Shown one piece after another: positions 5,138-39,890 of a stretch of DNA of 64,000 nt. Numbering within the stretch: position 1 is the first letter of the stretch; each line of letters starts with the position of its first letter. The translations under genes were made by a program, and so were the position numbers. The stretch is from Nitratireductor soli (GTDB lineage Bacteria > Pseudomonadota > Alphaproteobacteria > Rhizobiales > Rhizobiaceae): positions 186,001 through 250,000 of the forward strand of contig NZ_LFVY01000006.1 in assembly GCF_001050155.1 (NCBI RefSeq), read 5' to 3'. The notes under the pieces are model-generated. The model did no database searches. It was not told the DNA's origin and worked only from the letters and a program-made list of their open reading frames with translations.

Positions 5138-5590
5138 ATGGCAGCCCTGACCGAAGACCGCAACACCCCGCAGGCGCTTGGCGACATGCGCGAGGGCCTG
5201 ATGGCCGCCGCGACGACGATCTTCGCCGGCGCCATCGTCATGCGCAACGCCGCCGGTCACCTGACTAGGGGCGCCACGGCCACCGGCCTGGTCGGCGTCG
5301 GCCGCGCCGAGACGCGCGCCGTCAATGCCGGTTCGGCGGGCGACGCCAGCGCCAAATACCGGCCGGGCATCTTCCGCTTCGCTAATTCGGCCGCCGCCGA
5401 CGAGATCACCATCTCGGAGATCGGCACGCCGTGCTTCGCCGTCGACGACCAGACGGTGGCCAAGACGGACGGCACCGGCACGCGCTCGATCGCCGGTTTC
5501 GTCGACCATGTCGACGCCCAGGGCGTCTGGGTGCGCTTCGACGAGACGCTGGTGCGGACGCACCTTTCCGGCATCACCAACCCGGTCTGA
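5138..5590 (+). CDS. probable capsid decoration (cement) protein
   Basis: 150 residues with a run of small residues and short beta-prone segments (FAGAIVMRNAAGHLT, GLVGVGRAETRAVNAG, FRFANSAAADEIT), the pattern of DUF2190-like capsid cement proteins. It lies between protease/scaffold and major capsid, the usual place for a decoration gene. AAAGGA lies upstream of the ATG at 5138. Family assignment is by position and composition, so the exact family is not certain. Confidence 0.65.
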   Translation: MAALTEDRNTPQALGDMREGLMAAATTIFAGAIVMRNAAGHLTRGATATGLVGVGRAETRAVNAGSAGDASAKYRPGIFRFANSAAADEITISEIGTPCFAVDDQTVAKTDGTGTRSIAGFVDHVDAQGVWVRFDETLVRTHLSGITNPV

Positions 5591-5621
5591 CGCCACGCTC
5601 ACGACAATTGAGGAACGCTCG

Positions 5622-6515
5622 ATGATCATCAATTCGCAAAATCTCGACGCGCTGCGCGTCGGCTTCTCGACCGCCTTCCGGCGCGGCCTCGGCCAGGCGA
5701 CCAGCATGTACACGCGCGTCGCCACCACCGTGCCGTCCTCGACCAAAGACAACGCCTATGGCTGGCTCGGCAAGATGCCGAACATGCGCGAGTGGATCGG
5801 GCCACGTCATGTGCACGGGATCTCCGAGCACGATTACCGGATCAAGAACAAGTCGTTCGAACTGACCATCTCGGTCGATCGCGACGACATCCGCGACGAC
5901 AACATCGGCGTCTACGAACCGATGTTCGTTGAGATGGGCGAGTCGGTGACCGCAAGCCCCGACATGCTCGTGTGGGGCTTGCTGAAGGCCGGTTGGACGA
6001 CGCCCTGTTATGACGGGCAGAACTTCTTCGACACCGACCACCCGGTGCTCGACGAGGAGGGAGTGGTTCAGTCCGTCTCCAATGACGGCGGCGGCGGCGG
6101 AACCGCCTGGTATCTTCTCGCCACCCGGCGCGCCTTGAAACCGCTAATTTACCAGGAGCGCGAGAAGGCGCAGTTCGTGGCGAAAGACAACCCCACCGAC
6201 GAGAACGTCTTCTCGAGGAAGGAGTTCGTCTATGGCGTCGATGGCCGCTGGAACGTCGGTTTCGGCTACTGGCAAATGGCCTTCGGCTCCAGACAGACGC
6301 TGAACGCCGCCAACTACGAGGCGGCGCGCGGAGCGATCACCGGCATGAAGGGCGACCACGGCCGGCCGCTCGGTCTTGTCCCCGACCTCCTGGTGGTGCC
6401 ACCGACGCTCGAAGGCGCCGGCCGCGAGATCCTCAAGTCGGTGCTGGTCAACGGCGGTGAGACCAACAAGTGGGCGAATTCGGCCGAGCTCCTGATGGTG
6501 CCCTGGCTGGCTTGA
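5622..6515 (+). CDS. Mu gpT-like major head subunit
   Basis: 297 residues, close to Mu gpT length. The N-terminus MIINSQNLDALRVGFSTAF and the segment NFFDTDHPVLDEEG are typical of Mu gpT major capsid proteins. The ATG at 5622 is used because it restores the family N-terminus; a longer frame upstream overlaps the decoration gene and is not coding-like. This should be the most abundant virion protein. A copy of the structured repeat begins six bases after the stop codon. Confidence 0.92.
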   Translation: MIINSQNLDALRVGFSTAFRRGLGQATSMYTRVATTVPSSTKDNAYGWLGKMPNMREWIGPRHVHGISEHDYRIKNKSFELTISVDRDDIRDDNIGVYEPMFVEMGESVTASPDMLVWGLLKAGWTTPCYDGQNFFDTDHPVLDEEGVVQSVSNDGGGGGTAWYLLATRRALKPLIYQEREKAQFVAKDNPTDENVFSRKEFVYGVDGRWNVGFGYWQMAFGSRQTLNAANYEAARGAITGMKGDHGRPLGLVPDLLVVPPTLEGAGREILKSVLVNGGETNKWANSAELLMVPWLA

Positions 6516-6520
6516 CCGAG

Positions 6521-6620
6521 TTCACGGGCCGCACCGCCGCCTGATGGCGGCTGGCCCTCCGCATGGGCGCCCGAACGGTCGGGCGGCCACCGGTCGGTGG
6601 CTCGGCCGTCCGGCCGGGGT
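6521..6620 (+). repeat. structured junction element, copy 1
   Basis: First of five copies. Four hairpins in series: outer stem GGGCC (6526-6530) with GGCCC (6553-6557) enclosing GCCGCC-TGAT-GGCGGC; GCCCGA-ACGG-TCGGGC (6569-6584); GCCACC-GGTC-GGTGGC (6586-6601); CGGCC-GTCC-GGCCG (6603-6616). It fills most of the gap between the major capsid gene and the next gene, whose start is 24 bases downstream. Confidence 0.8.
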
Positions 6621-6643
6621 GTCCACACTCGAAAGGCAACGAC

Positions 6644-7129
6644 ATGGCTAGACAGGCGAAAAAGGAAGCACCCGGCGAGGCTATCGTCGAACAAAATTCC
6701 AGCGAGAAGGAGCGGTCTGGTACGGCTCGCGAGGCACCCAGCACCATAGAGGGACGCGAGGCGCACGCCTCGGACGTAGGGGTTCAGCCCGCCGCTCCAA
6801 ACGGTTCTCCCACCAACGAAGAGCAGGATGGCCCTGCCGTGCCGCCGGGCCGGGCGGCCTGGCTGGCGCTCCAGGAGCTCGACGAGGAGGACGTGCGACG
6901 CCGCCATCCGCAGACCGTCGCGGCGCTGCGGGCCTGGGCCGAAAAGGCCGGTAGCCGGGAGGCGATCGAGGTCGGCCCTGCCGTCCGGATCGTGGCCAGG
7001 CGCGAAGGTTTCCGCCGCTGCGGCATCGCCCATCCGAAGGCTGCGACCGATCATCCGGCCGAACGTTTCACGCCGGACGAGCTGGAACGGCTGCTGTCGG
7101 AACCCAACCTGATCGTGGAGCTCGTCTGA
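6644..7129 (+). CDS. Mu gp35-like structural protein
   Basis: 161 residues. The N-terminal 75 residues are polar and disordered-looking; the C-terminal part (from LDEEDVRRRHPQTVAAL to the end) resembles the short domain of Mu/FluMu gp35-type proteins with FRRCGIAHP and RFTPDELERLLSEPNLIVELV, the last being a motif often seen just before the DUF1320 gene. The ATG at 6644 follows a GAAAGG site. The frame is open further upstream, but that stretch is the repeat element, so the short start is preferred. Exact role in the head is not known. Confidence 0.7.
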   Translation: MARQAKKEAPGEAIVEQNSSEKERSGTAREAPSTIEGREAHASDVGVQPAAPNGSPTNEEQDGPAVPPGRAAWLALQELDEEDVRRRHPQTVAALRAWAEKAGSREAIEVGPAVRIVARREGFRRCGIAHPKAATDHPAERFTPDELERLLSEPNLIVELV

Positions 7130-7134
7130 GCGCT

Positions 7135-7563
7135 ATGGCCTATTGCACGCTCCAGGAGCTGACCGACCGCTATTCGGAGCGGATGCTGGTCGAGATCTCC
7201 GACCGCGCCGACGCGCCGACGGGCATGATCGATGCCGACTTGATCACCAGAGCGATCGCCGACGCCGACGCGCTGATCGACGGTTATCTGAAGGTGCGCT
7301 ACCGGCTGCCGCTTGCGAGCGTGCCGCGCCTGGTGAAAGACCTGTCGCTGCGCATCTCGATCTACTACGCCCACGCCCATGTCGCCGCGGAAAAGATCAG
7401 GCGCGACTACGAGGAGGCGCTTAGCAGCCTGAAGCATATCAGCCAGGGTCTGATCCGCCTCGACCTGGATGGTGTTGAACCGGAGGCGTCGGGCGCCTCG
7501 GAAGTGCGCACCAACAATCCCGAACGGCCGATCACTGCCGCCACGATGAAGGGCTATATCTGA
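7135..7563 (+). CDS. Mu gp36-like protein (DUF1320), head-tail connection
   Basis: 142 residues. The N-terminus MAYCTLQELTDRY, then TRAIADADALIDGYL and RYRLPL, are characteristic of DUF1320 / Mu gp36 proteins, which are head completion or connector proteins. Its stop overlaps the next start in TGATG, pointing to translational coupling. Length is normal for the family. Confidence 0.88.
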   Translation: MAYCTLQELTDRYSERMLVEISDRADAPTGMIDADLITRAIADADALIDGYLKVRYRLPLASVPRLVKDLSLRISIYYAHAHVAAEKIRRDYEEALSSLKHISQGLIRLDLDGVEPEASGASEVRTNNPERPITAATMKGYI

Positions 7564-8099
7564 TGCCCCATTCGACAGGCTCAGGAGGCGCGCGCATTGA
7601 GCTCACCGGCCGCGAGGAAACGCTTTCCTTCCTTGCCGATGCGGTCGGCCGTACCGACGACAAGCGTGGCCTGTTCGACGCGATCGGCGCTTCGCTGGTC
7701 CTCTCGACGCAGCAGCGCTTCGAGCGCGAGGAAGACCCCGAGGGCAATCCCTGGCCGGATTCGCTGCGCAAGCTGGTCGAGGGCGGGCGGACGCTGACTA
7801 TGACGGCGCGTCTCGTCTCCTCCATCACCCATGAGGCCAGTGCCAGCGCTGTCGCGGTCGGCACCAACGAGATCCACGGCGCGATCCACCAGACCGGTGG
7901 AACGATCCGCGCCAAGACCTCGCGCGGCCTGCGCTTTCGCGGTCCCGGCAATGGCGGATGGGTGACGACACAGGAAGTCACCATGCCCAGGCGCGCCTTT
8001 CTCGGCCTCGACCAGGACGATGAGGCTGAGATCCGCGCCTTGTCGGCCGACTGGCTGGGCGCCGAGGATGACGCGGGAGGCGGCGATGCTGGTCGCTGA
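7563..8099 (+). CDS. phage virion morphogenesis protein (Mu gpG-like)
   Basis: 178 residues. Family segments are LVLSTQQRFEREEDPEGNPW, TLTMTARLVSSITHEA, IHGAIHQTGG and the C-terminal MPRRAFLGL, all typical of the phage virion morphogenesis / tail completion family (Mu gpG, P2 gpS). The gene starts in a TGATG overlap with the gp36-like gene. In Mu this gene lies before the protease; here it is moved downstream, next to the tail terminator. Confidence 0.87.
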   Translation: MPHSTGSGGARIELTGREETLSFLADAVGRTDDKRGLFDAIGASLVLSTQQRFEREEDPEGNPWPDSLRKLVEGGRTLTMTARLVSSITHEASASAVAVGTNEIHGAIHQTGGTIRAKTSRGLRFRGPGNGGWVTTQEVTMPRRAFLGLDQDDEAEIRALSADWLGAEDDAGGGDAGR

Positions 8100-8526
8100 C
8101 CTGGTCGGACGCATCGAGGCCGGCGTTTCGACGCTCGCGGGACGTACCGAGACGGCCGCCGAGCTTTCGGAGCTGATCCGTCGCAAGGCGTTGCCGCAGG
8201 CCTCGCCCTTCGCCTTCGTGCTGCCGCTCGGCCTTCATGCACACGGCCGCGGCGAGGCGGGCGCCGGGGCTTTCATCCAGGCCGTCGACGAAGCCTTCGC
8301 CGTGATCTTGTTCGCCCGCGCTTCGGGCGACATCACCGGCGGCAAGGCGCTGCCCGGCATCGATGCGCTGGTCTGGGCGGTCATCGAAGCCATCTGCGGC
8401 TGGGGGCCTGACGACGCCATCGGCGTCTTCCATTTGCGCCGCGGCCAGCTCCTCTCAGCCGAGGCCGGCGCCGTCATCTATCAGCTCGATTTCGGGCTCC
8501 AGCAACAGGTGAGGATCGTCGCATGA
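8086..8526 (+). CDS. phage tail terminator-like protein (gp37 type)
   Basis: 146 residues from the ATG at 8086, which has GGGAGG at 8075-8080. It overlaps the previous gene by 14 bases. The sequence (LVADLVGRIEAGVSTLAGR, FVLPLG, GWGPDDAIGVFHLRRGQLLS) fits the small Gp37 family that caps the tail tube at the head-proximal end. It ends in an ATGA overlap with the next small gene. Confidence 0.8.
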   Translation: MLVADLVGRIEAGVSTLAGRTETAAELSELIRRKALPQASPFAFVLPLGLHAHGRGEAGAGAFIQAVDEAFAVILFARASGDITGGKALPGIDALVWAVIEAICGWGPDDAIGVFHLRRGQLLSAEAGAVIYQLDFGLQQQVRIVA

Positions 8527-8726
8527 CCGGAAAGCCGAAACCTGCGGAACGTCCGCCGCTGCCCGCCGCCGGCGGCAGCTTCGTGCGCCAGCCCGACGGT
8601 TCGCTGTTGCGCGTCGATCGCGCCGAAGGCGAAGCCGCCGACCGCTCGCCGTCCGACGTTTCGGACGCCCCGTCTGGAGCGAGCCGCGAAAGCGGCGACA
8701 GCGTGAAGACAAAGAGGAGCACTTAA
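8523..8726 (+). CDS. small phage protein whose C-terminus is a repeat copy
   Basis: 67 residues starting in an ATGA overlap. Residues 11-32 (PPLPAAGGSFVRQPDGSLLRV) resemble the short linker proteins found between tail terminator and tail tube in Mu-like phages (gp38 position). From about residue 34 onward the protein is read through repeat copy 2, giving a serine- and acid-rich tail. Its stop abuts the start of the tail tube gene. Function unknown. Confidence 0.6.
   Translation: MTGKPKPAERPPLPAAGGSFVRQPDGSLLRVDRAEGEAADRSPSDVSDAPSGASRESGDSVKTKRST
8621..8708 (-). repeat. structured junction element, copy 2 (inverted, inside a gene)
   Basis: Reverse-oriented copy. On the plus strand it reads CGCC-GAA-GGCG (8621-8631), a degenerate third stem, GTCCGA-CGTT-TCGGAC (8651-8666) and GCCGC-GAAA-GCGGC (8683-8696). 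The 8651-8666 stem carries a paired change relative to GCCCGA/TCGGGC in the other copies. It lies inside the 3' half of the gene at 8523-8726. Confidence 0.65.
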
Positions 8727-9659
8727 ATGCCGATCAAATGGCGCTCGAAGATCCTGCTCGCCAAGATCGAGGCGGCCTATGGGGTCGATTCCGCTCCCAC
8801 CGGCGGCGCAAACGCCATCCTCGCCACCAACATCGTGCTGACGCCGATGGAAGGCCAGGACGTGTCGCGCGAGCTGGAGCTGCCGTGGCTGGCCGCCCAG
8901 GCGACGATACCGGCCGGCCTGCATGTCCGGCTGCAGTTCCGCGTCGAGCTCGTGCCCTCCGGTGCCGCCGGCACGGCACCCGCCTGGGGGCCGCTGATGC
9001 GCGCCTGCGCCGTCGCCGAGACGGTGACGCCGGCAACCAGTGTGGTTTACAATCCCGTGACCGATGGCCACGAGAGCGTGACGATCCATTTCTGGATCGG
9101 CGGCACGCGCTATGTGGCGCGCGGATCGCGCGGTACGGCTGTCCTGCGCTTCACGGCCCAGGCCGTTCCCTACCTCGAATTCGACTTCCGCGGCCTGTTC
9201 GCCGTGCCCTCTGAACAGGCGCGGCCGACACCGACGCTGACCGCCTTCCTCAAACCCGACCTGGTGACGAGCGCCAAGACGCCGAGTTTCGAGATCGGCG
9301 CGCAACCCTTCGTCATGCGCTCCTTCGCGCTCGACCTCGGCAATGCCATCGAGATGCGCTTCCTGGTCGGCTCCGAAACGGTCCTCATCACCGACAAGGC
9401 GGAAAGTGCTGCGGCGCAGGTCGAGGCGGTGCCGCTGTCAACCTTCGATCCCTACACGGCTGCGCAGGATCAGACGTCGCTCGCCGTCGAGCTGGTGCAT
9501 GGCACGGTCGCCGGCCGTATCGCCACGCTCGACATCGCCGCCGCCCAGCTCCAACGGCCGGCTGGCCTGGAGAACGCACAGGACGTGCTGGAATGGCCGC
9601 TGCGCCTCGTGCCGCTGCCGGTGGCCGGCAACGATCAGTGGACGCTAACGCTCACCTAG
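8727..9659 (+). CDS. phage tail tube protein
   Basis: 310 residues. The N-terminus KWRSKILLAKIEAAYGVDS, then ILATNIVLTPMEGQDVSREL, is typical of siphophage tail tube proteins of the B3/RcapMu kind; the remainder is beta-rich. It is the building block of a flexible tail, and no sheath gene is present, so the phage is a siphovirus rather than a contractile myovirus. GAGGAG at 8712-8717 supports the ATG at 8727. Confidence 0.82.
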   Translation: MPIKWRSKILLAKIEAAYGVDSAPTGGANAILATNIVLTPMEGQDVSRELELPWLAAQATIPAGLHVRLQFRVELVPSGAAGTAPAWGPLMRACAVAETVTPATSVVYNPVTDGHESVTIHFWIGGTRYVARGSRGTAVLRFTAQAVPYLEFDFRGLFAVPSEQARPTPTLTAFLKPDLVTSAKTPSFEIGAQPFVMRSFALDLGNAIEMRFLVGSETVLITDKAESAAAQVEAVPLSTFDPYTAAQDQTSLAVELVHGTVAGRIATLDIAAAQLQRPAGLENAQDVLEWPLRLVPLPVAGNDQWTLTLT

Positions 9660-9668
9660 GAGGCAATT

Positions 9669-9998
9669 TTGACCTACCGGCTCGACCCCAACCCCGAATT
9701 CTGGGCGCAAGTGACCGTGCGTCGGCCCGGCGAGCACGCGGAGCCGGAGACGTTCCGCGCAAAGTTCCGGGCGCTTTCGATCGAGGAATTCAACGAGCAC
9801 GACCTTTCCGCCGAGGAAGGAACCCGCGCCTTTCTGGACGATGCTCTCCGTGACATCGACGAGGTGGAGGCGCTGGACGGTTCGCCGCTTTCCTTCACCG
9901 AGGCCGTGCGCGCCAAGATGATCGGCGCCCCGCATGTGCGGGCGTCCCTCGTTGCCTCCTATCTCGGCGCCTTTCGCGAGGCGCTCTCGGGAAACTGA
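9669..9998 (+). CDS. tail assembly chaperone, 0-frame product (gpG-like)
   Basis: 109 residues from a TTG start at 9669, backed by a perfect AGGAGG at 9658-9663 that overlaps the stop of the tail tube gene. Position between tail tube and tape measure, small size and a following gene in the -1 frame identify it as the upstream half of a lambda G/GT-type chaperone pair. The last codons are TCG GGA AAC TGA, which contain a G-GGA-AAC slippery heptamer (9989-9995) immediately before the stop. Confidence 0.8.
   Translation: MTYRLDPNPEFWAQVTVRRPGEHAEPETFRAKFRALSIEEFNEHDLSAEEGTRAFLDDALRDIDEVEALDGSPLSFTEAVRAKMIGAPHVRASLVASYLGAFREALSGN
9989..9995 (+). promoter_or_regulatory. slippery heptamer for programmed -1 frameshift
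   Basis: The bases GGGAAAC are in the X-XXY-YYZ phase relative to the upstream gene (G GGA AAC). A -1 slip gives GGG AAA CTG and enters a frame that is open to 10408, joining the two chaperone reading frames into one product of 246 residues. The stop codon directly follows the heptamer. Confidence 0.75.
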
Positions 9999-10018
9999 TC
10001 GCCGCCGCGCGGGCCTGG

Positions 10019-10408
10019 GTGGCGGGCGCGCTGTCCATGGGCGGGGCCGACGGGGCCGGCGCGGCGGGGGAATGGCGGGAAGCGGCCGACGACGCCAGGC
10101 GCTGGGGAATGGACGAGCCGGACATCGCCGCCTTGGTGGCGGCCTTGTCCGGCCGCCGGTCGGCGGGGTTTGCCGGCGTCTGGCCGGACAATTGCCCGGC
10201 CGTGGACGCGTTTCTCGCCGCGGCCTCGCAATGGCGCACGGCGCTGGTCGTCGAAGGAGGACGCTTGAGGATGATGTGGATCGGGCTCGACTATGCGGGG
10301 GCGGCGGTCGCCTGGAAGGCCGGCGGCCGGATGATCGACGCGGCCGTCTTCGCCGGCGTCCAGGCGATCGAGCTTGCCGCCCGCGCGGCCATGAACGGCG
10401 AGGTGTGA
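10019..10408 (+). CDS. tail assembly chaperone, -1 frame part (gpT-like, DUF1799-type)
   Basis: A GTG at 10019 allows 129 residues, but the frame is open leftwards to the slippery site, so the more likely product is the frameshift fusion with the gene at 9669. The sequence (WREAADDARRWGMDEPDIA, VWPDNCPAVDAFLAAASQWR, WIGLDYAGAAVAW) matches small DUF1799-like proteins placed before tape measure genes. The fusion form normally recruits the tape measure during tail assembly while the short form is in excess. Confidence 0.75.
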   Translation: MAGALSMGGADGAGAAGEWREAADDARRWGMDEPDIAALVAALSGRRSAGFAGVWPDNCPAVDAFLAAASQWRTALVVEGGRLRMMWIGLDYAGAAVAWKAGGRMIDAAVFAGVQAIELAARAAMNGEV

Positions 10409-10412
10409 CACC

Positions 10413-12383
10413 GTGGCACTTCGTCTTGCCCTGGTCATCGAAGGCGATGCCGCCGGCGCCAAGAAGGCCCTGCAGGAGGCTGCCGGCGGTGTCGACGAAC
10501 TCGGCAGGAAGGCCGACCAGGCCTCGCGCAAGATCGAGCGGGTCGGCCGCGTCGAGTGGAACGACGCCGAGTTCGACCGCGCCCGCAACGGGCTGAAGGC
10601 CACCGCCGACGAAGGCGAGCGGGCGGCCGAGAGCGTGCGCGCGGTGGCCGACGCCGGCGGCCGGGCGGCGCCCGAGATCGGCAAGATGGGCGACGCGGCA
10701 GAAGTGGCCGGCGGCAAGGTCGGCGCTCTGGGCACCGTGCTGATCGGCGCCGCTGGCGGCCTGGCGGCGGGCATCGCCATCACGGCGATCGGCGAAGGCC
10801 TGAAGATCGCCGCTGGTGCCGCCGCCGATCTCGTCCGCGAAATCACCTCCAACCAGCCGAAGATCGCGCGGGCGCTGGAAGATCATGCGGGGCTTGTCGC
10901 CAAGGTGAAAGGCGCCTGGGCCGAGGCATCGGGCGCGGCTTCCTCCTATGGTCTCAACGCCGCATCGGTTCTGCGTTTCGAGAGCCAGCAGAATGTCGGG
11001 CGGCTGGAAGAGGCGACGCGCGCATCGCAACGCGATCTCGTTCAAGGCAGCGATGCGCTGCGGCCCTCGGATGTGCTCGGCAATCCGTTCGGCCGGTTCG
11101 GCCCGCTGAAGGCCGAGGTCGAGGGCTTTCGCCAGGAGCTGCGCGAGGGCCAGGCCGATGTGATCGAGTTCCGCCGCCAGGTCGGCGCGATCGCCGGGGC
11201 CTTGCCGAAGGACTCGCCGTTCCGCCGGCTGGCCGAGCAGATCCTGGAGGACACCAAGGCTGCCTCCGAGTTGCAGGCGGAACTGGAGCGGTCGCGCGAT
11301 CTGCTCGATGGCTTGCAGGGCGACGCCGAGGCCTCGGCCACGGCGCTCGGCGGCTCTGCCGAGAAATACCGCGACCTCGGCGGCGCGGCGGGCGAAGCGG
11401 CGCCGGCGATCGGCGCTGGCGCCGACGAAATCCGCCGCTCGGGCGAAGCTGCCGCCGGCGCCAATCCGGCGCTTGCCGAAACTGACCGGCTGTTGAAGTC
11501 CATCGCCGGCGGCGCCGCGGTGCCCACCGATCTGCTCGGCTCGCCGGCCCGCGCCGCCGCGACGCCGCTGACCGAGGGCCGAACGTTCGCAGGCGGCGGG
11601 TTCACCGGCCACATGCCGGCCGACCGGATCGCCGGCCTGGTGCATGGGCGCGAATATGTGTTCGACGCGGCATCGACCTCCCGCATCGGCGTCGCCAATC
11701 TCGATGCCATCCGTGCCGGCGTGGCGGGCTATGCCAGTGGCGGTTATGTCGGCGCTGTGCCCTCCGGCCTTTCGGGTCGTTCGCCCGTTGCCGCCTCGGC
11801 CGAGGATTTCCGCATCCTGTCGGGCTCGCTGCACCAGTTCCTCTCCGCGATTGCCCAGGGGCAGGATGTGATGAAGACGCTTGCCGGTGTCGTCGACCGC
11901 GTCAGCCAGCGCTTTCTCGATTTCGCCTTCCGCGCCCTCGACCAGGCGCTGCTCGGCGGCGGCAGTGGCGGCGGCGGGCTCCTGGGCGGCATCGTCGGTG
12001 CGGTTGGCCAGGCATTCGGATTCGGCGGGATCGGCGGTAATGTCTTCCCGCCGGCGCCCCTGGCGCCGGTCGGCCTCTACCATGGCGGCGGGCGCGTCGG
12101 CGCCGGGCCGCAGCTCTCACGCGCCGTGCCGGCCTCCGTCTTCATCGGCGCGCCGCGCATGCACACGGGCGGCTTGCTGAAGCCCGGCGAGCGGCCGGTG
12201 ATCGCCATGGACGGCGAGGAGATCGGCTGGCCCGATCAACTGGCGCGGAAGTACGGACAGGGTCAGACCGTTGTCAACAACTTCAACATCGAGACGCCGA
12301 ACCCGAAAGCCTTCGCCGAGAGCCGTGCCTCGGTCGCCCGCGCTGGCGCCCGCTTCGCCAGCCGCTTTGGAAGGTATAGCTGA
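10413..12383 (+). CDS. tape measure protein
   Basis: 656 residues from a GTG at 10413. The N-terminal half is alanine-rich coiled-coil with a hydrophobic stretch near residues 103-135 (GTVLIGAAGGLAAGIAITAI). The middle has GGGFTGHMPADRIAGLVHG and EYVFDA, a recurrent tape-measure C-terminal motif, then a glycine-rich segment and a second HTGGLLKPGERPVI repeat. Such proteins set the tail length and act in DNA entry. The size suggests a tail of about 100 nm or less, an inference from usual scaling. Confidence 0.85.
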   Translation: MALRLALVIEGDAAGAKKALQEAAGGVDELGRKADQASRKIERVGRVEWNDAEFDRARNGLKATADEGERAAESVRAVADAGGRAAPEIGKMGDAAEVAGGKVGALGTVLIGAAGGLAAGIAITAIGEGLKIAAGAAADLVREITSNQPKIARALEDHAGLVAKVKGAWAEASGAASSYGLNAASVLRFESQQNVGRLEEATRASQRDLVQGSDALRPSDVLGNPFGRFGPLKAEVEGFRQELREGQADVIEFRRQVGAIAGALPKDSPFRRLAEQILEDTKAASELQAELERSRDLLDGLQGDAEASATALGGSAEKYRDLGGAAGEAAPAIGAGADEIRRSGEAAAGANPALAETDRLLKSIAGGAAVPTDLLGSPARAAATPLTEGRTFAGGGFTGHMPADRIAGLVHGREYVFDAASTSRIGVANLDAIRAGVAGYASGGYVGAVPSGLSGRSPVAASAEDFRILSGSLHQFLSAIAQGQDVMKTLAGVVDRVSQRFLDFAFRALDQALLGGGSGGGGLLGGIVGAVGQAFGFGGIGGNVFPPAPLAPVGLYHGGGRVGAGPQLSRAVPASVFIGAPRMHTGGLLKPGERPVIAMDGEEIGWPDQLARKYGQGQTVVNNFNIETPNPKAFAESRASVARAGARFASRFGRYS

Positions 12384-12398
12384 TGGAGAGTGATATCG

Positions 12399-12494
12399 CT
12401 CACGGTCCGCATCGCTCGCTCCGCTCGCTGGACCTCCGCGAGGGCGCCCGAAACGTCGGGCGGGCAGCGGTCGCTGCCTTGCCGGCGACAGGGA
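12399..12494 (+). repeat. structured junction element, copy 3
   Basis: Between tape measure and the DUF2460 gene. Outer stem GGTCC (12404-12408) with GGACC (12430-12434), a compensated variant of GGGCC/GGCCC; GCCCGA-AACG-TCGGGC (12446-12461); GGCAGC-GGTC-GCTGCC (12463-12478). The fourth hairpin has decayed and is replaced by the GGGAGG ribosome site of the next gene. Confidence 0.78.
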
Positions 12495-12501
12495 GGATCT
12501 A

Positions 12502-13134
12502 GTGCCGGCGCCATTCCTCGACGCGGCGATCTTTCCGATCCACGTTTCGGCCGGCTCGCCGGGTGGGCCGGACTGGCCCGCCGAGATCGTTCCGCTCTCC
12601 TCGGGCCGCGAGGAGCGCAATTCCGCCTGGTCGGCGCCCTTGCGCAGCTACGACGCCAAATACGGTGTCCGCACGCCGGCCGAGCTCTACGAGGTGCTGT
12701 CGCTCTACCATGCGGCGATGGGCCGGCTGTCAGGCTTCCGCTTTCTCGACTGGACCGATTACCGTTCGGCCGCGCCGCACCAGGCGCCCACGGCCACCGA
12801 CCAGCAATTGGGCGTCGGCGATGGCGTCGAGACCGCATTCCCGCTCGCTAAGCGCTATTCCTTCGCCGGCGCCCATCACGACCGCAGGATCACGCGGCCC
12901 TTCGGCACCGTGCTGGTGGCGATCGACGGCGCGCCGCAGGGCGCCGGCTTCGCCGTCGACATGACCTCCGGCACGGTCACCTTCGCCGCCCCACCTGCCA
13001 ATGGCGCCGTCCTGACCTGGGGCGGCCAGTTCCATGTGCCGGTGCGCTTCGACTGCAAGCTCGATCAGATCTCGCTGCGCACGGCGGCGATCGGCGACAT
13101 CCCGTCGATCTTTCTGAAGGAACTGCGCGAATGA
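12502..13134 (+). CDS. distal tail protein, DUF2460 (GTA Gp12 type)
   Basis: 210 residues from a GTG at 12502 with GGGAGG upstream at 12491-12496. FLDAAIFPIHVSAGSPGGP, RNSAWSAPLRSYDAKYGVRT, FRFLDWTDYRS and the C-terminal VPVRFDCKL are diagnostic of DUF2460, the distal tail protein of gene transfer agents and related siphophages that starts the baseplate hub. It overlaps the DUF2163 gene in ATGA. Confidence 0.9.
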   Translation: MPAPFLDAAIFPIHVSAGSPGGPDWPAEIVPLSSGREERNSAWSAPLRSYDAKYGVRTPAELYEVLSLYHAAMGRLSGFRFLDWTDYRSAAPHQAPTATDQQLGVGDGVETAFPLAKRYSFAGAHHDRRITRPFGTVLVAIDGAPQGAGFAVDMTSGTVTFAAPPANGAVLTWGGQFHVPVRFDCKLDQISLRTAAIGDIPSIFLKELRE

Positions 13135-14027
13135 AGACGCTTCCAGCCGGCCTGCAGGCGCTGCTCGATTCCGGCGTCACCACGCTTTGCAATTGTTGGC
13201 GCATTGCGCGCCTGGATGGCCAAGTGTTCGGCTTCACCGATCACGACAGGCCGCTCACCTTCGCCGGCACCGCGTTCAAGCCCGAGACAGGCCTGTCGGC
13301 CTCCGAGGTTTCCTCGTCGCTCGGTCTTGCGGTCGACACGATGGAGGTTGAGGGCGCCGTATCATCCGCCGAGATCACCGAGGACGACATCGCGCTCGGC
13401 CTTTGGGACAATGCGGCGGTCGAGCTCTGGCGGGTCGACTGGACGGATGTCGACAACCGCGTGATCCTGCGCAAGGGCTCGATCGGCGAGGTGACGCGCG
13501 GCGACGTGGCCTTCATGGCCGAATTGCGCGGCCTGGCGCACGCGCTCAACCAGGAGCGCGGCCGCAAGTACCAGCGGCCCTGCGACGCCGTCGTGGGTGA
13601 CGCCCGCTGCACGGTCGATCTCGACACGGCCGCGTTCAAGGGAACGGGAACCGTGACGACCGTCTCAGACGACAGGCTGGTGACGGCGTCCGGCCTGTCG
13701 GCCTTCGCCGACGAGTGGTTCGCGCAAGGCGTGCTCACCTGGACGTCCGGAGCCAATGACGGGACCGTCACCGAGGTTTCGGGGCATCTGAAACAGTCGG
13801 GCGGGCTGGCAGGGTTGACGCTGTGGACGCGGGCTGCCCGAACGATCGAGCCCGGCGACACGTTTTCCGTGACCGCCGGCTGCGACAAGCGCTTCGCCAC
13901 CTGCAAGGCCAAGTTCGCCAACCAGCTCAACTTTCGCGGCTTTCCGCACATTCCCGGCAATGATTTCGCCCTCGGCACCGCCAAGCGCAGCGGCGACAAT
14001 GATGGCGGGAGTTTTTTTAATGGTTAG
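13131..14027 (+). CDS. baseplate hub protein, DUF2163 (GTA Gp13 type)
   Basis: 298 residues. The sequence LCNCWRIARLDGQVFGFTDHD, then CDAVVGDARC and CDKRFATCKAKFANQLNFRG, is diagnostic of DUF2163; the conserved cysteines are kept. This is the hub subunit linking distal tail protein and the tip. The final codons include a run of seven T (14012-14018). The stop lies within the leading edge of repeat copy 4. Confidence 0.92.
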   Translation: MKTLPAGLQALLDSGVTTLCNCWRIARLDGQVFGFTDHDRPLTFAGTAFKPETGLSASEVSSSLGLAVDTMEVEGAVSSAEITEDDIALGLWDNAAVELWRVDWTDVDNRVILRKGSIGEVTRGDVAFMAELRGLAHALNQERGRKYQRPCDAVVGDARCTVDLDTAAFKGTGTVTTVSDDRLVTASGLSAFADEWFAQGVLTWTSGANDGTVTEVSGHLKQSGGLAGLTLWTRAARTIEPGDTFSVTAGCDKRFATCKAKFANQLNFRGFPHIPGNDFALGTAKRSGDNDGGSFFNG

Positions 14028-14030
14028 CGC

Positions 14031-14128
14031 TCACGGGCCGTATCGCTCACTGCGTTCGCTGGCCCTGCACGAGCGCGCCCGAAACGTCGGGCGGCCGGCG
14101 GTCGCCGGCTCGGCCTGCGGCCGGGAGG
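14031..14128 (+). repeat. structured junction element, copy 4
   Basis: Between DUF2163 and peptidase genes. Stems: GGGCC (14035-14039) with GGCCC (14061-14065); GCCCGA-AACG-TCGGGC (14077-14092); GCCGGC-GGTC-GCCGGC (14094-14109); CGGCC-TGC-GGCCG (14111-14123), whose 3' arm leads straight into the GGGAGG ribosome site of the next gene. Confidence 0.82.
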
Positions 14129-14135
14129 CGCTTTC

Positions 14136-14702
14136 ATGACTGACGTGGCACGCTTGTTCCGTCAGCGGATCGTCGCCGTCGCGCGCGGTTTCGACGGCGT
14201 CGCCTATCGCCATCAGGGCGCCGATCGCCATGGCTGCGATTGCCTTGGCCTGGTGCGCGCCGTGTGGCGCGAGCTGTACGGCTTCGACGCCGAGGCGCCG
14301 CCGGCCTACGGCCCGGCCTGGGCCGATCCCAGCGGGGTTGAAACGCTGTTGAACGCCGCTTCAAGACACCTTCAACCGCGCCCGATCGCCGCCATGGCGG
14401 CAGGCGATGTGCTGGTCTTCCGCTGGCGGCCGGGGCTTGCGGCCAAGCATTGCGGCATCCTCACCGCCGACGACCGCATGATCCACGCTTATGAGTCCGC
14501 AGGCCGCGTCGCCGAGGGCCACATCGCCGACGCCTGGCGCCGACGCATCGCCGGAGTATTTTCTTTCCCAGCGCCAATCCATTGCAAGGCAACCACCCCG
14601 GCCGAAGGCCGAGGCAGCGACCGCTGCCCGCCCGACTTTTCGGGCGCCCCCACGGAGGGCCAGCGCGCAAAGCGCGCGATACGGCCCGTGAGTGAGAACT
14701 GA
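14136..14702 (+). CDS. NlpC/P60-family tail peptidase (GTA Gp14 type)
   Basis: 188 residues. HGCDCLGLVRAVWRELYG carries the catalytic Cys, and AAKHCGIL the catalytic His, of the NlpC/P60 fold. GTA Gp14 homologues are cell-wall peptidases at the tail tip. GGGAGG precedes the ATG at 14136. The family normally ends near residue 148; here the last roughly 38 residues (from about ATTPAEGRGSDRCPP on) are translated from repeat copy 5, an unrelated Arg-rich tail. It overlaps the next gene in TGATG. Confidence 0.88.
   Translation: MTDVARLFRQRIVAVARGFDGVAYRHQGADRHGCDCLGLVRAVWRELYGFDAEAPPAYGPAWADPSGVETLLNAASRHLQPRPIAAMAAGDVLVFRWRPGLAAKHCGILTADDRMIHAYESAGRVAEGHIADAWRRRIAGVFSFPAPIHCKATTPAEGRGSDRCPPDFSGAPTEGQRAKRAIRPVSEN
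14597..14692 (-). repeat. structured junction element, copy 5 (inverted, inside a gene)
   Basis: Reverse-oriented copy. On the plus strand: CGGCC-GAA-GGCCG (14599-14611); GGCAGC-GACC-GCTGCC (14613-14628); GCCCGA-CTTT-TCGGGC (14630-14645); GGGCC (14657-14661) with GGCCC (14683-14687) enclosing GCGCGC-AAA-GCGCGC (14663-14677). It supplies the last codons of the peptidase gene, and the next start codon follows ten bases later. Confidence 0.82.
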
Positions 14703-17700
14703 TGGCCACCATCGTCCTGGGCGTCATCGGCGCCTCGATCGGCGGCGCTTTCGGCGTCATCGGTGGGCTGGTCGGCCAGGCGGTCGGGGCGCTGGCCGGC
14801 TCGTTTGCCGATCGCGCCATCGTCAACGCGCTCACCCCGCCGGTCAAGCGCGAGGGGCCGCGCCTGACCACCAGCGACATCCAGACGGCCACCGAAGGTT
14901 CCGACATCGACCGCGTCTATGGCCGCACCCGCGTCACCGGCGAGATCTTCTGGGCAACCCGCTACGAGGAGGTGGCCAAGACCGAGCGCGCCGGCGGCAA
15001 GGGCGGGCCGCGCGTCGAGACGACCACCTATCATTATTACGGCAATTTCGCCGTCGGCCTTTGCGAGGGGCCGATCGCCGGCATCGGCCGCATCTGGGCC
15101 GACGGCAAGGAGATCGACCAGACGGGGATCGAGTTCCGCGTCCACCGTGGCACGCAGGCGCAAAGCCCCGACCCGCTGATCGAGGCCAAGGAGGGCGCCG
15201 GCAACGCGCCCGCCTATCGCGGGCTCGCCTACCTCGTCTTCGAGCGCCTGCACCTGGAATCCTATGGCAACCGCCTGCCGCAGATCGCTGTAGAGGTGTT
15301 CCGGCCGACCGGCGCGCTGGAGCCGCTGGTGCGCGGCGTCGCCGTCATTGGCGCCAACGAGATGGGCTTCGAGGTCGAGGAGGTGCGCGTCATCCACCAG
15401 TTCTTCGGCGGCATCCTTTTGAACCGCCACACCAAGGTCGATGCGAGCGACTGGATCGTCTCGATCGACCGGCTGCAGATGCTGGCGCCGAACGTCCGCC
15501 AGGTGCTGCTGGTGCTGCCCTGGTTCGGCGACGATCTGCGCGCCGGCCATTGCACCTGCCGGCCGAAGGTCGACGACAACGAGAAGGAGACCAACGTGCC
15601 ATGGTCGGTGGCGGGCGTCTTCCGCATCTTTGCCGACCTGGTCAGCGAGGCCGCCGGCGTGCCGGCCTTCGGCGGCTCGCCCTCCGACCAGGCGGTGGTG
15701 ACGGCGATCCGCGATCTCAACGCGCGCGGCATCGATGTCACCGTCGTGCCGTTCCTGATGATGGACGTAGCCGGTGCCAACGCTTTGCCCGATCCCTATT
15801 CGGACAACGCCGCTTCCATCGGCCAGCCTTCCTATCCCTGGCGCGGCCGCATCACCTGTTCGCCGGCGCCGGGCTTCGCCGGTTCGCCCGACAAGACGGC
15901 GGCGGCCGCAGTCCAGGTAGCAAGCTTCCTCGGCACGGCCAACGCATCGCATTTCGGCGCGGCCGGCGAAGCGGTCGTCTATTCCGGGCCAGCCGAATGG
16001 TCCTATCGCCGCTTCATCCTGCACTACGCCAAGCTCGCGGCGATCGCCGGAGGCGTCGAGAGTTTCCTCATCGGCACGGAAATGCGCGGCCTGACGGAGG
16101 TGCGCGCGTCGTCTTCCGCCTATCCCTTCGTTGCCGGGCTGAAGGCGATCGCCGCCGAGGCGCGCGCGCTATTGGGGGGCAGCGTCAAGATCGGCTACGC
16201 CGCCGACTGGTCCGAATATCATTCGCACCGGCCGGCCGACGGCTCGGGCGACGTCTATTTCAACCTCGATCCGCTCTGGTCGGATGCCGATGTCGATTTC
16301 ATCGGCATCGACAACTACCTGCCGATCGCCGACTGGCGCGACGGCACCGGCCATCTCGACTACGACGCTTCCGGCCCGACCACCATCTACGACCGCGCCT
16401 ATCTGGCGGCGAACGTCGAGGGCGGCGAATATTACGACTGGTATTACGCCTCCGATGCCGACCGCCAGGCGCAGGCGCGCTCGCCGATCGCCGACGGCGC
16501 CTATGGCAAGCCCTGGGTGTTTCGCCAGAAGGATCTGCGCAATTGGTGGCTGAACGCGCATCACGACCGGCCAGGCGGCATCGAGGCCGGTGCGCCGACC
16601 GCTTTCGTGCCGCAGGGAAAGCCGATCCGCTTCACCGAGATCGGCTGCCCGGCGGTCGACAAGGGCGCCAACCAGCCCAACGTCTTCGTCGACGCGAAAT
16701 CGTCGGAAAGCGCCTATCCGCATTTTTCCACCCGCGCCCGCGACGACGCCATGCAGCGCGCCTTTCTCGAAACGGTCCTGTCCCACTGGTCGGACAACAA
16801 TCCGCATTCGCCGGTCTATGGCGGGCCGATGGTGGCCATCGACCGCGCCTGCATCTGGGCCTGGGACGCCAGGCCGCATCCGTCGTTTCCGCAGGATCTG
16901 CGCTGGGGGGACGCGGTCAATTGGGAGCTCGGCCATTGGATTTCCGGCCGGCTGGGCACGGCGCCAGCGGCCGAGACGCTCCGCGCGGTGCTCGATGATG
17001 CCGGTTTCGCCGATCACCATGTGGCGCCGCTTTCGACGATCGTCGAGGGCGTCACCACCGGCCGGGTGCTGTCTGCCCGCGCCATGCTTGAAGCCTTGCA
17101 GGCGGTCTACCAGTTCGAGGCGGTCGAATCGGACGGGCTGATCAAGTTCTCGCCCAGGCTGGGGGCGCTGCCGGTGGCCGAGCTCGATGGCGAAGGGCTG
17201 GCGGTCGCGGCCGACACGGCGGCCCGCTTTCGCCAGACGCGGGCGCAGGAGACAGAACTGCCGGCGGCGATCAAGCTCGCCTATGGCGATCCGGGCCGCG
17301 ACGACCAGCCGGCCTCGGCCGAGGCGCGGCGCTCGGCCGGCGGCTCCCAGCGCGTCGTCGAAATGGCCCTGCCGGCCATCATGAGCGAGGGCCAGGCGAC
17401 GCGCATCGCCGAGATCGAGCTTTCGCGCGCGTGGATCGCCCGCGAGCGCGCCGAATTTTCCCTGCCGCCGTCGCGCCTGGCGCTCGACCCGGGCGACGTG
17501 GTCGATTTCCTGCCGACGCGGACGACGCTCCGGCTGACCGGCATCCATGACGCGGGCCTGCGCCGCGCCGAAGGCCACCGGGTCGACCCGCTGGCGGCGG
17601 CCCCGGTGCCGCGCGCATCCTCGCCGGCGCCGACCCCGCCCGTCACGCTCTATCTCAAGGCGCGCCTGGCGCTGATCGATGGGCCGCTCCTGAAGGATGC

Positions 17701-24023: not shown

Positions 24024-24098
24024 TGGCTCCCCGGGCCGGATTCGAACCAGCGACCAACCGGTTAACAGCCGGTTGCTCTACCACTGAGCTACCGGGGA
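24024..24098 (-). tRNA. tRNA-Asn (anticodon GTT)
   Basis: On the minus strand the sequence starts TCCCCGGTAGCTCAG, has an anticodon stem ACCGG/CCGGT around a CTGTTAA loop (GTT anticodon), the T-loop GGTTCGAATCC, and an acceptor 3' strand CCGGGGA followed by G and an encoded CCA. Length 75. All stems close. The 3' end faces the remnant region at 23213-23880. Confidence 0.95.
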
Positions 24099-39637: not shown

Positions 39638-39684
39638 CATTCCTCCAAAGTTGCACGCATGCCCGTTGTTCACGGCATGTTCGT

Positions 39685-39890
39685 GCCCCTCTGTCGGAAG
39701 CCTGAGAGACTCGCGCGACCGGAACCCTGTCGGCCACGCTTACACCTTCGGCGCGGGGACCAGCCCCGACTTTCCAGAGTGTCTTTACCGATCGACGGTT
39801 CTTTTGCCTGAGAGATTTCGGGCGATTTCCCCTTCGGCGTCCGCACCGGATCACTCCAGCTTGGCTCTCTCCCGCAGACCGGCAGGGCTT
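39685..39890 (-). promoter_or_regulatory. tandem glycine riboswitch
   Basis: On the minus strand two aptamers lie head to tail. Each has the GGxxGxGAG-type P1 side, a CGCCGAAGG core (plus-strand complements near 39831-39839 and 39745-39754) and the TCTCAGGC core (complements near 39793-39802 and 39699-39708). The first aptamer keeps CAGGCAAAAGAAC. It lies about 50 bases upstream of gcvT and should turn on the operon when glycine is high. Confidence 0.93.

Follow-up and report, generated by a model that had tools for sequence, protein, structure and literature searches.

The DNA analysed here, referred to below as the window, is a stretch of 64,000 nucleotides from the 5.1 Mb genome of Nitratireductor soli (G000; contig NZ_LFVY01000006.1, our C53, positions 186,001 to 250,000), and our subject is a palindromic repeat that occurs in five copies among the late genes of a prophage within it. 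Ten open reading frames (ORFs) at 5325-14702, scanned against PHROGs, include genes for major head, head-tail adaptor, neck, tail, tape measure and tail assembly proteins, so the prophage setting given in a preliminary description of this DNA is correct. The same description had located five copies of a structured element here. A covariance model, R1, recovers each of them, and the five are homologous, with scores of 59-102 bits; the next-best match in the window reaches 20.2 bits.

Three copies lie in sense orientation between genes. Copy 1 (6523-6619, + strand, 77.7 bits) separates the major head protein gene (phrog_371) from the ORF at 6644-7129, its model start falling 7 nucleotides (nt) past the stop codon; copy 3 (12401-12493, +, 89.6 bits) has the stop of the tape measure gene 17 nt upstream and ends 8 nt before the ORF at 12502-13134; and copy 4 (14032-14126, +, 101 bits) follows the stop of the tail assembly gene 13131-14027 by 4 nt and ends 9 nt before the next start codon. 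The other two are antisense to the operon. Copy 2 (8617-8707, −, 59.2 bits) makes up most of the C-terminal half of a small phage ORF (8523-8726, +; peptide RAEGEAADRSPSDVSDAPSGASRESGDSV), which has no PHROGs match and directly precedes the tail-protein gene 8727-9659. Copy 5 (14596-14690, −, 102.2 bits) is an in-frame C-terminal tag of the tail gene 14136-14702 (+), a minor tail protein in PHROGs and presumably NlpC/P60-like, whose stop overlaps the next ATG. Both are read in the antisense frame typical of copies that reside in genes, and tag two phage ORFs at their C-termini. Every copy had been placed at a junction between late genes, which holds for copies 1, 3 and 4, whereas copies 2 and 5 lie within the 3′ portions of ORFs and in frame with them. 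The gene at 8727-9659 is also labelled minor tail protein; its genomic place suggests that it and its homologues encode the tail tube. Copies 4 and 5 are as close to an insert found in a gene for the helicase UvrD (82%) as they are to one another (81%).

The repeat is about 95-105 bp long, very GC-rich, and forms five helices. R1, with 95 positions and 27 pairs, was built from the five window copies and ten relatives from other loci; among these 15 sequences, 34 pair cells are changed on both sides, against 11.7 in shuffles. A larger set of 127 copies (124 distinct) was drawn from the window, bacterial genomes and viral contigs at E≤0.0005, with at least one copy in each of 100 sources. It is a chosen set rather than a census, and leaves out ten loci with genome-survey matches of E 9e-6 or weaker (L258-L267), loci repeating larger stretches, and R1 genome matches that were not fetched. 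In this set 570 cells are double-changed (171 in shuffles), 94.0% of pair cells hold standard pairs (72.9% in shuffles, at most 48.4% in slid controls), and the covariation score is 0.462 (at most 0.074 in slid controls); the alignment was fitted to the R1 structure, so that these counts lean towards it. One extra, strongly covarying pair joins the first and third hairpins. The third stem takes forms such as CGCCCGA/TCGGGCG and CGGGCGA/TCGCCCG, among others, around a nearly constant loop, and the fourth varies freely around GGTC. Most changes exchange C-G for G-C, and few intermediates are seen: Watson-Crick pairs fill 1489 of the 1558 cells of stems three and four, with GU in 5 and AC in 9. 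The compensatory stem variants, constant GGTC loop and GG(G/T)CC outer stem first reported from the window are all present, with the exception that copy 2 lacks the outer stem as it had been drawn, and the paired changes extend to other bacterial and phage loci.

Intrinsic terminators, or GC-rich palindromes arising by chance, might be expected to show very GC-rich hairpins such as these, and when the copies are folded in isolation as RNA only copy 5 (z −3.1) and copy 1 (z −2.0) are clearly better than shuffles, the other three window copies doing little better than them (z −0.25 to −1.4). Such an origin is nevertheless scarcely credible. None of the five copies has a terminator-like site, and a pattern search of the bacterium's own genome returned five matches against none in a reversed control, which, with the gap in R1 score down to 20.2 bits, speaks against palindromes of equal density across the genome; the strong homology and covariation point the same way. 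No Rfam family matches the element at its gathering score, and at E≤5 the region 6000-15200 gave two weak matches, neither at a copy.

The family extends well beyond this phage. Of the 394 genomes searched from the host's family, 75 contain R1 matches (E≤1e-4); they represent 34 of 109 genera, and the figure is a lower bound because ten candidates were scored per genome. A strict pattern search found eight stretches of named genomes (Chelativorans, Pseudaminobacter, Mesorhizobium) and five viral contigs, of which the contig L017 contains the five copies of the window itself, and L015 those of a prophage of Chelativorans alearense. In the window genome, all five copies found at E≤0.001 lie inside the prophage; at E≤0.01 there are seven matches, these five and two additional ones, which are weak (38.7 and 37.1 bits) and lie on other contigs. 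The host's UvrD, in addition, holds a diverged copy, TAEGRKPDRASAGQAALAEG...VSESK (L282), which is recognised by its peptide only and is not listed by R1. If copies were independent, the chance of finding all five in ~45 kb (the prophage size, from L017, a 44-kb viral contig) would be 5e-11, but copies in one phage are not independent. The earlier statement that no copy lies outside the prophage is therefore right for the strong copies of this genome, leaving aside the two weak matches, and does not extend to other genomes, where copies outside phages are common.

Genomes differ in how far their copies cluster. In G039 all five (E≤0.001) fall within 36 kb of one contig, and the two parts of that stretch that were read contain sheath, tube and tape measure genes (L063) and phage replication genes (L064). 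The C. alearense genome has six of its 11 copies in a syntenic prophage, and G247 has four of 11 in L065, where PHROGs match three of four tested proteins; G158 carries 10 copies on seven contigs without such a cluster. A BLAST search with copy 5 of phage and plasmid records gave no match at E≤0.01, although low-complexity filtering may hide some. The element is a dispersed palindromic repeat, not a prophage-specific RNA, and its family inhabits chromosomes as well as phages of several kinds. Tandem arrays of 2-3 units with a period of ~100-120 bp were also seen (L076 4985-5274, L077 4977-5274, L208 1526-1748 and L218 1567-1755).

Many copies are translated. By gene calls, 57 of the 127 lie inside genes, 52 of them antisense to the model strand and 50 of these in a single frame, with the typical peptide AEGRxxDRxPxDxSxAPAxAxxxSERxAVSEN. 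Mean net charge is lower in this frame (+2.7) than in any of the other five (+4.9 to +7.6), and a stop codon interrupts it in 11 of 127 copies, the other frames in 10 to 39. Antisense copies are translated in one, least basic, frame in about ten gene contexts: UvrD/PcrA helicase (32 copies), IleRS-like (nine), hydantoinase A-like (three), the GlyRS beta subunit (one), a primase-like gene of a viral contig, four phage ORFs and two weak gene calls. These assignments come from Pfam for one UvrD, one IleRS, two hydantoinase A, the GlyRS and the primase-like protein, and from shared motifs for the rest.

The 32 UvrD copies lie between motifs II and III, in the interval separating VDEYQDTN and GDDDQSIYG. 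The UvrD of L012, which has two copies, carries 80 residues where PcrA (1pjr) has 2, and four of 30 UvrD loci examined have only 7-13 amino acids at the insert place (L281, L287, L291, L295). An AlphaFold2 prediction for the L012 protein with three sequences reached a mean pLDDT (predicted local distance difference test) of 30.6 and was uninformative on the insert. When 30 of the 32 uvrD copies are aligned without the model, 102 cells are double-changed against 36.7 in shuffles and 93.0% are paired; further pair types show no excess in these copies (26 against 23.8, with 95 of 500 shuffles as high). Which of the peptides PPDFSGA, PGDVSPA, PDDVSSA and PSDRSDA is present follows the pairing of the hairpin; paired changes preserve the hairpins even if they swap amino acids of UvrD, as between PPDFSGA and PGDVSPA. 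No palindromic repeat in frame in UvrD or in Rhizobiales is named in the titles and abstract openings of the literature searched.

The same motif II-III loop holds other repeat-like inserts, of the ISPLEGEIGS / ISPLVGEMPG and GPQGRPAVAPDGAPPRSEPRSGDSVSENK kinds (L274, L284, L288, L048, L271, L275, L294, L297), and for this reason looks like a hotspot for in-frame repeats; the GPQGRPAVAPDGAPPRSEPRSGDSVSENK kind may be our repeat in another frame.

The preliminary description had taken the paired changes as a sign of selection on RNA. Selection on the transcript predicts an excess of AC mismatches on the element strand in copies read antisense, and of GU in copies read in sense. Gene-resident antisense copies have 20 GU and 9 AC (two-sided p 0.06), opposite to the expected AC excess; sense copies at 3′ ends have 9 and 5 (p 0.42), and copies in other contexts 6 and 6. 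The predicted strand bias is absent. Since, moreover, 30 coding copies in uvrD keep the same covarying hairpins, the inference of RNA selection is unsupported; the gene-resident copies weaken the view of the repeat as an RNA element, and a DNA-level cause of the paired changes is more likely.

Sense copies invite a different account, in which those of phages serve mainly as RNA 3′-end modules, their hairpins, placed behind strongly expressed virion genes, protecting the upstream mRNA from 3′-5′ decay and lowering expression of the next gene. The REP (repetitive extragenic palindromic) sequence between malE and malF of Escherichia coli is a precedent. Sense copies fit closely between the stop codon of one gene and the start codon or ribosome site of the next: in phage loci, 16 lie within 60 nt past a stop, 10 of them at exactly 7 nt and the rest at 4 to 36. 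These 16 exclude L216, a duplicate of L080; with a copy at the tube junction of L201, read by eye, they make 17. Six of the 17 follow genes labelled head (window and L059) or sheath and tube (L063 and L080), and three more follow homologues of window gene 8727-9659, giving nine of 17 if these are indeed tail tube genes. At gene 3′ ends generally, 34 sense copies (two being the L216 duplicates) compare with two antisense intergenic copies and six antisense copies that extend an ORF and whose end is at most 20 nt from that of the ORF; weak calls account for two of the six. Part of this orientation bias can reflect survival of insertions, or counting, because the open frame of antisense copies runs into the ORF. 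On the other side, eight to 11 of the 17 stand behind other genes, no strand-specific GU signature is seen, and each junction compared is filled in just one to three syntenic phages. As the main function of the phage copies we consider this unlikely; they may have a secondary role as RNA in late operons.

Two further settings of the element were observed. A 344-residue gene ending in QPK(K/R/L)(K/Q)AA has the element 7-28 nt past its stop in six genomes (L077, L219, L229, L245, L246, L037; Pfam, run on L077 only, gives semialdehyde dehydrogenase), and in L065 a copy at 14313-14408 (+) precedes a phage-type reverse transcriptase gene (phrog_1423) by 8 nt.

The comparison of junctions covers seven syntenic phages: the window, L059/L060 (C. 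alearense), L122, L123, L201/L202, L203/L204 and L205/L206. A junction was scored as empty where R1 found no match; for most junctions except that of the head gene, the gap between BLAST matches is also too short for a copy. The junction behind the head gene is filled in two of the five phages covered, 8523|tube in one of seven, tube|9669 in three of seven (that of L201 by eye, at an R1 score of 15.7 bits), and tape measure|12502, D2163|nlpC and nlpC|tip in two of seven each; no homologue of 8523 or of 9669 was seen in L203. Beyond these junctions, L203 has one more copy behind its ORF-89 homologue, and L060 has one ahead of that gene. At E≤0.01 R1 found nothing in L123 or L205/L206, and the genome G112 has no match at E≤0.001. 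The head-gene site looks inherited, because the inner hairpin GCCGCCTGATGGCGGC is common to the copies that two phages have there. In two phages, copies inverted to each other stand on either side of the nlpC-like gene (window 14032-14690; L059 5988-6725); these are 81% and 79% alike within each phage and 58% and 53% alike between phages at the same site; copies would therefore also be exchanged or renewed within a phage, although the L059 sense copy behind nlpC is 74% like window copy 5. Elsewhere in the window, a tRNA-Asn gene (24024-24098, −) lies to the right of the phage genes as a possible attachment site, and a glycine riboswitch occurs at 39681-39787 (−, 54.2 bits).

We favour, with a probability of roughly 0.7, the reading that this is a non-autonomous dispersed palindromic repeat of the host's family and its phages that works like the palindromic coding elements of Rickettsia. 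It has the look of a small piece of selfish DNA. Among the roles first suggested for the element (translation regulator, processing site or mobile palindrome), that of a mobile palindrome fits, because the family is dispersed, its junctions are filled or empty in syntenic phages and it has inserted in unrelated genes. The repeat would spread by insertion of hairpin-forming DNA mobilised by some enzyme, and mainly two kinds of insertion would survive, those behind a stop codon and those in frame through the mild antisense frame. Paired changes would arise at the DNA level, either because mobility needs the hairpin or because template switching between its arms corrects mismatches, and temperate phages would be a reservoir and the probable vehicle.

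Several observations weigh against this. No mobilising enzyme was found in a search that covered Y1 transposases, which are present in only two of 11 element-bearing genomes tested. The compared phages, which are too diverged, yielded no target-site duplication or precise pair of empty and filled sites. Of the 57 gene-resident copies 32 belong to one gene, and insertion in UvrD at one place in many genera implies that much of this may be vertical inheritance. Five gene-resident copies are on the same strand as the called gene (one half of a double copy in L059, three cases in small ORFs of L065, and one in a weakly called gene of L074). More sense phage copies follow major virion genes than neutral insertion suggests, in numbers that are small and at sites some of which are inherited. 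Finally, with all contexts and helices pooled, GU exceeds AC (36 against 20), mainly in the first and last hairpins, an excess that may come from R1 scoring GU above AC.

A bolder version joins both orientations in one scheme. The repeat would be amplified by phages and its fate decided by orientation, sense copies becoming 3′-end modules that follow major virion genes in tailed phages unrelated to one another, and antisense copies translated tags; phages would seed essential genes (UvrD, IleRS, GlyRS) of many genera, where amino acids would covary only to keep the DNA hairpin. We regard this as conceivable, though doubtful. In Rickettsia, the invasion of reading frames by palindromic repeats has long been puzzling, and to our knowledge no mover of these repeats is known. 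A family in genera such as Chelativorans and Mesorhizobium and in their phages makes the question testable, through presence and absence between phages, induction and genetics. The UvrD inserts, moreover, are a clear case of amino-acid covariation that stems from nucleic-acid pairing, and a warning for the inference of RNA or protein structure from covariation.

Among known systems, REP sequences and their composites, the BIMEs (bacterial interspersed mosaic elements), are likewise palindromic intergenic repeats with tandem units at operon junctions, and array size, palindromes, intergenic copies and tandem units here resemble those of BIMEs. That our repeat is such an element, moved by a RAYT (REP-associated tyrosine, or Y1) transposase, is nonetheless very improbable: nine of the 11 genomes tested, including that of the window and three with 10-11 copies, lack a Y1_Tnp domain, GTAG or CTAC occurs in two of 127 copies, and copies are translated. 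The tag is no argument against the CGTC class of REP, since CGTC occurs in 56 of 127 copies and GACG in 73, counted anywhere in the copy.

The repeat might instead be a known intergenic repeat of Rhizobiales, RIME1/2 or Bru-RS, in a new place. Passages of PMC2267715 describe Bru-RS as a palindromic repeat of 103-105 bp in Brucella, and the title of Osteras 1995 presents RIME as a rhizobial intergenic repeat. Compared by description only, Bru-RS1/RS2 and RIME share with our element their palindromic nature and bacterial order, and Bru-RS its size as well. The same passages class Bru-RS as intergenic, which argues against identity, and we think this origin improbable. The CIRs (CcrM-associated intergenic repeats, printed CerM in PMC2229807), in the account given there, are also alphaproteobacterial stem-loop repeats; unlike them, our element has GANTC, the methylation site linked to CIRs, in one of 127 copies.

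The closest likeness is to the Rickettsia palindromic elements (RPEs), which passages of PMC2229807 and PMC10969869 describe as hairpin-forming repeats of ~105-146 bp that are intergenic and also fused in frame in genes for conserved proteins. The element described here is likewise ~100 bp long, palindromic, dispersed, and fused in frame in UvrD, IleRS, hydantoinase A and GlyRS beta. It differs from RPEs in its hosts, in the packing of several copies into phage late operons, in the placement of sense copies close behind stop codons and in the use of one antisense frame. The likeness, drawn from descriptions and not from sequence, would be one of behaviour rather than of membership.

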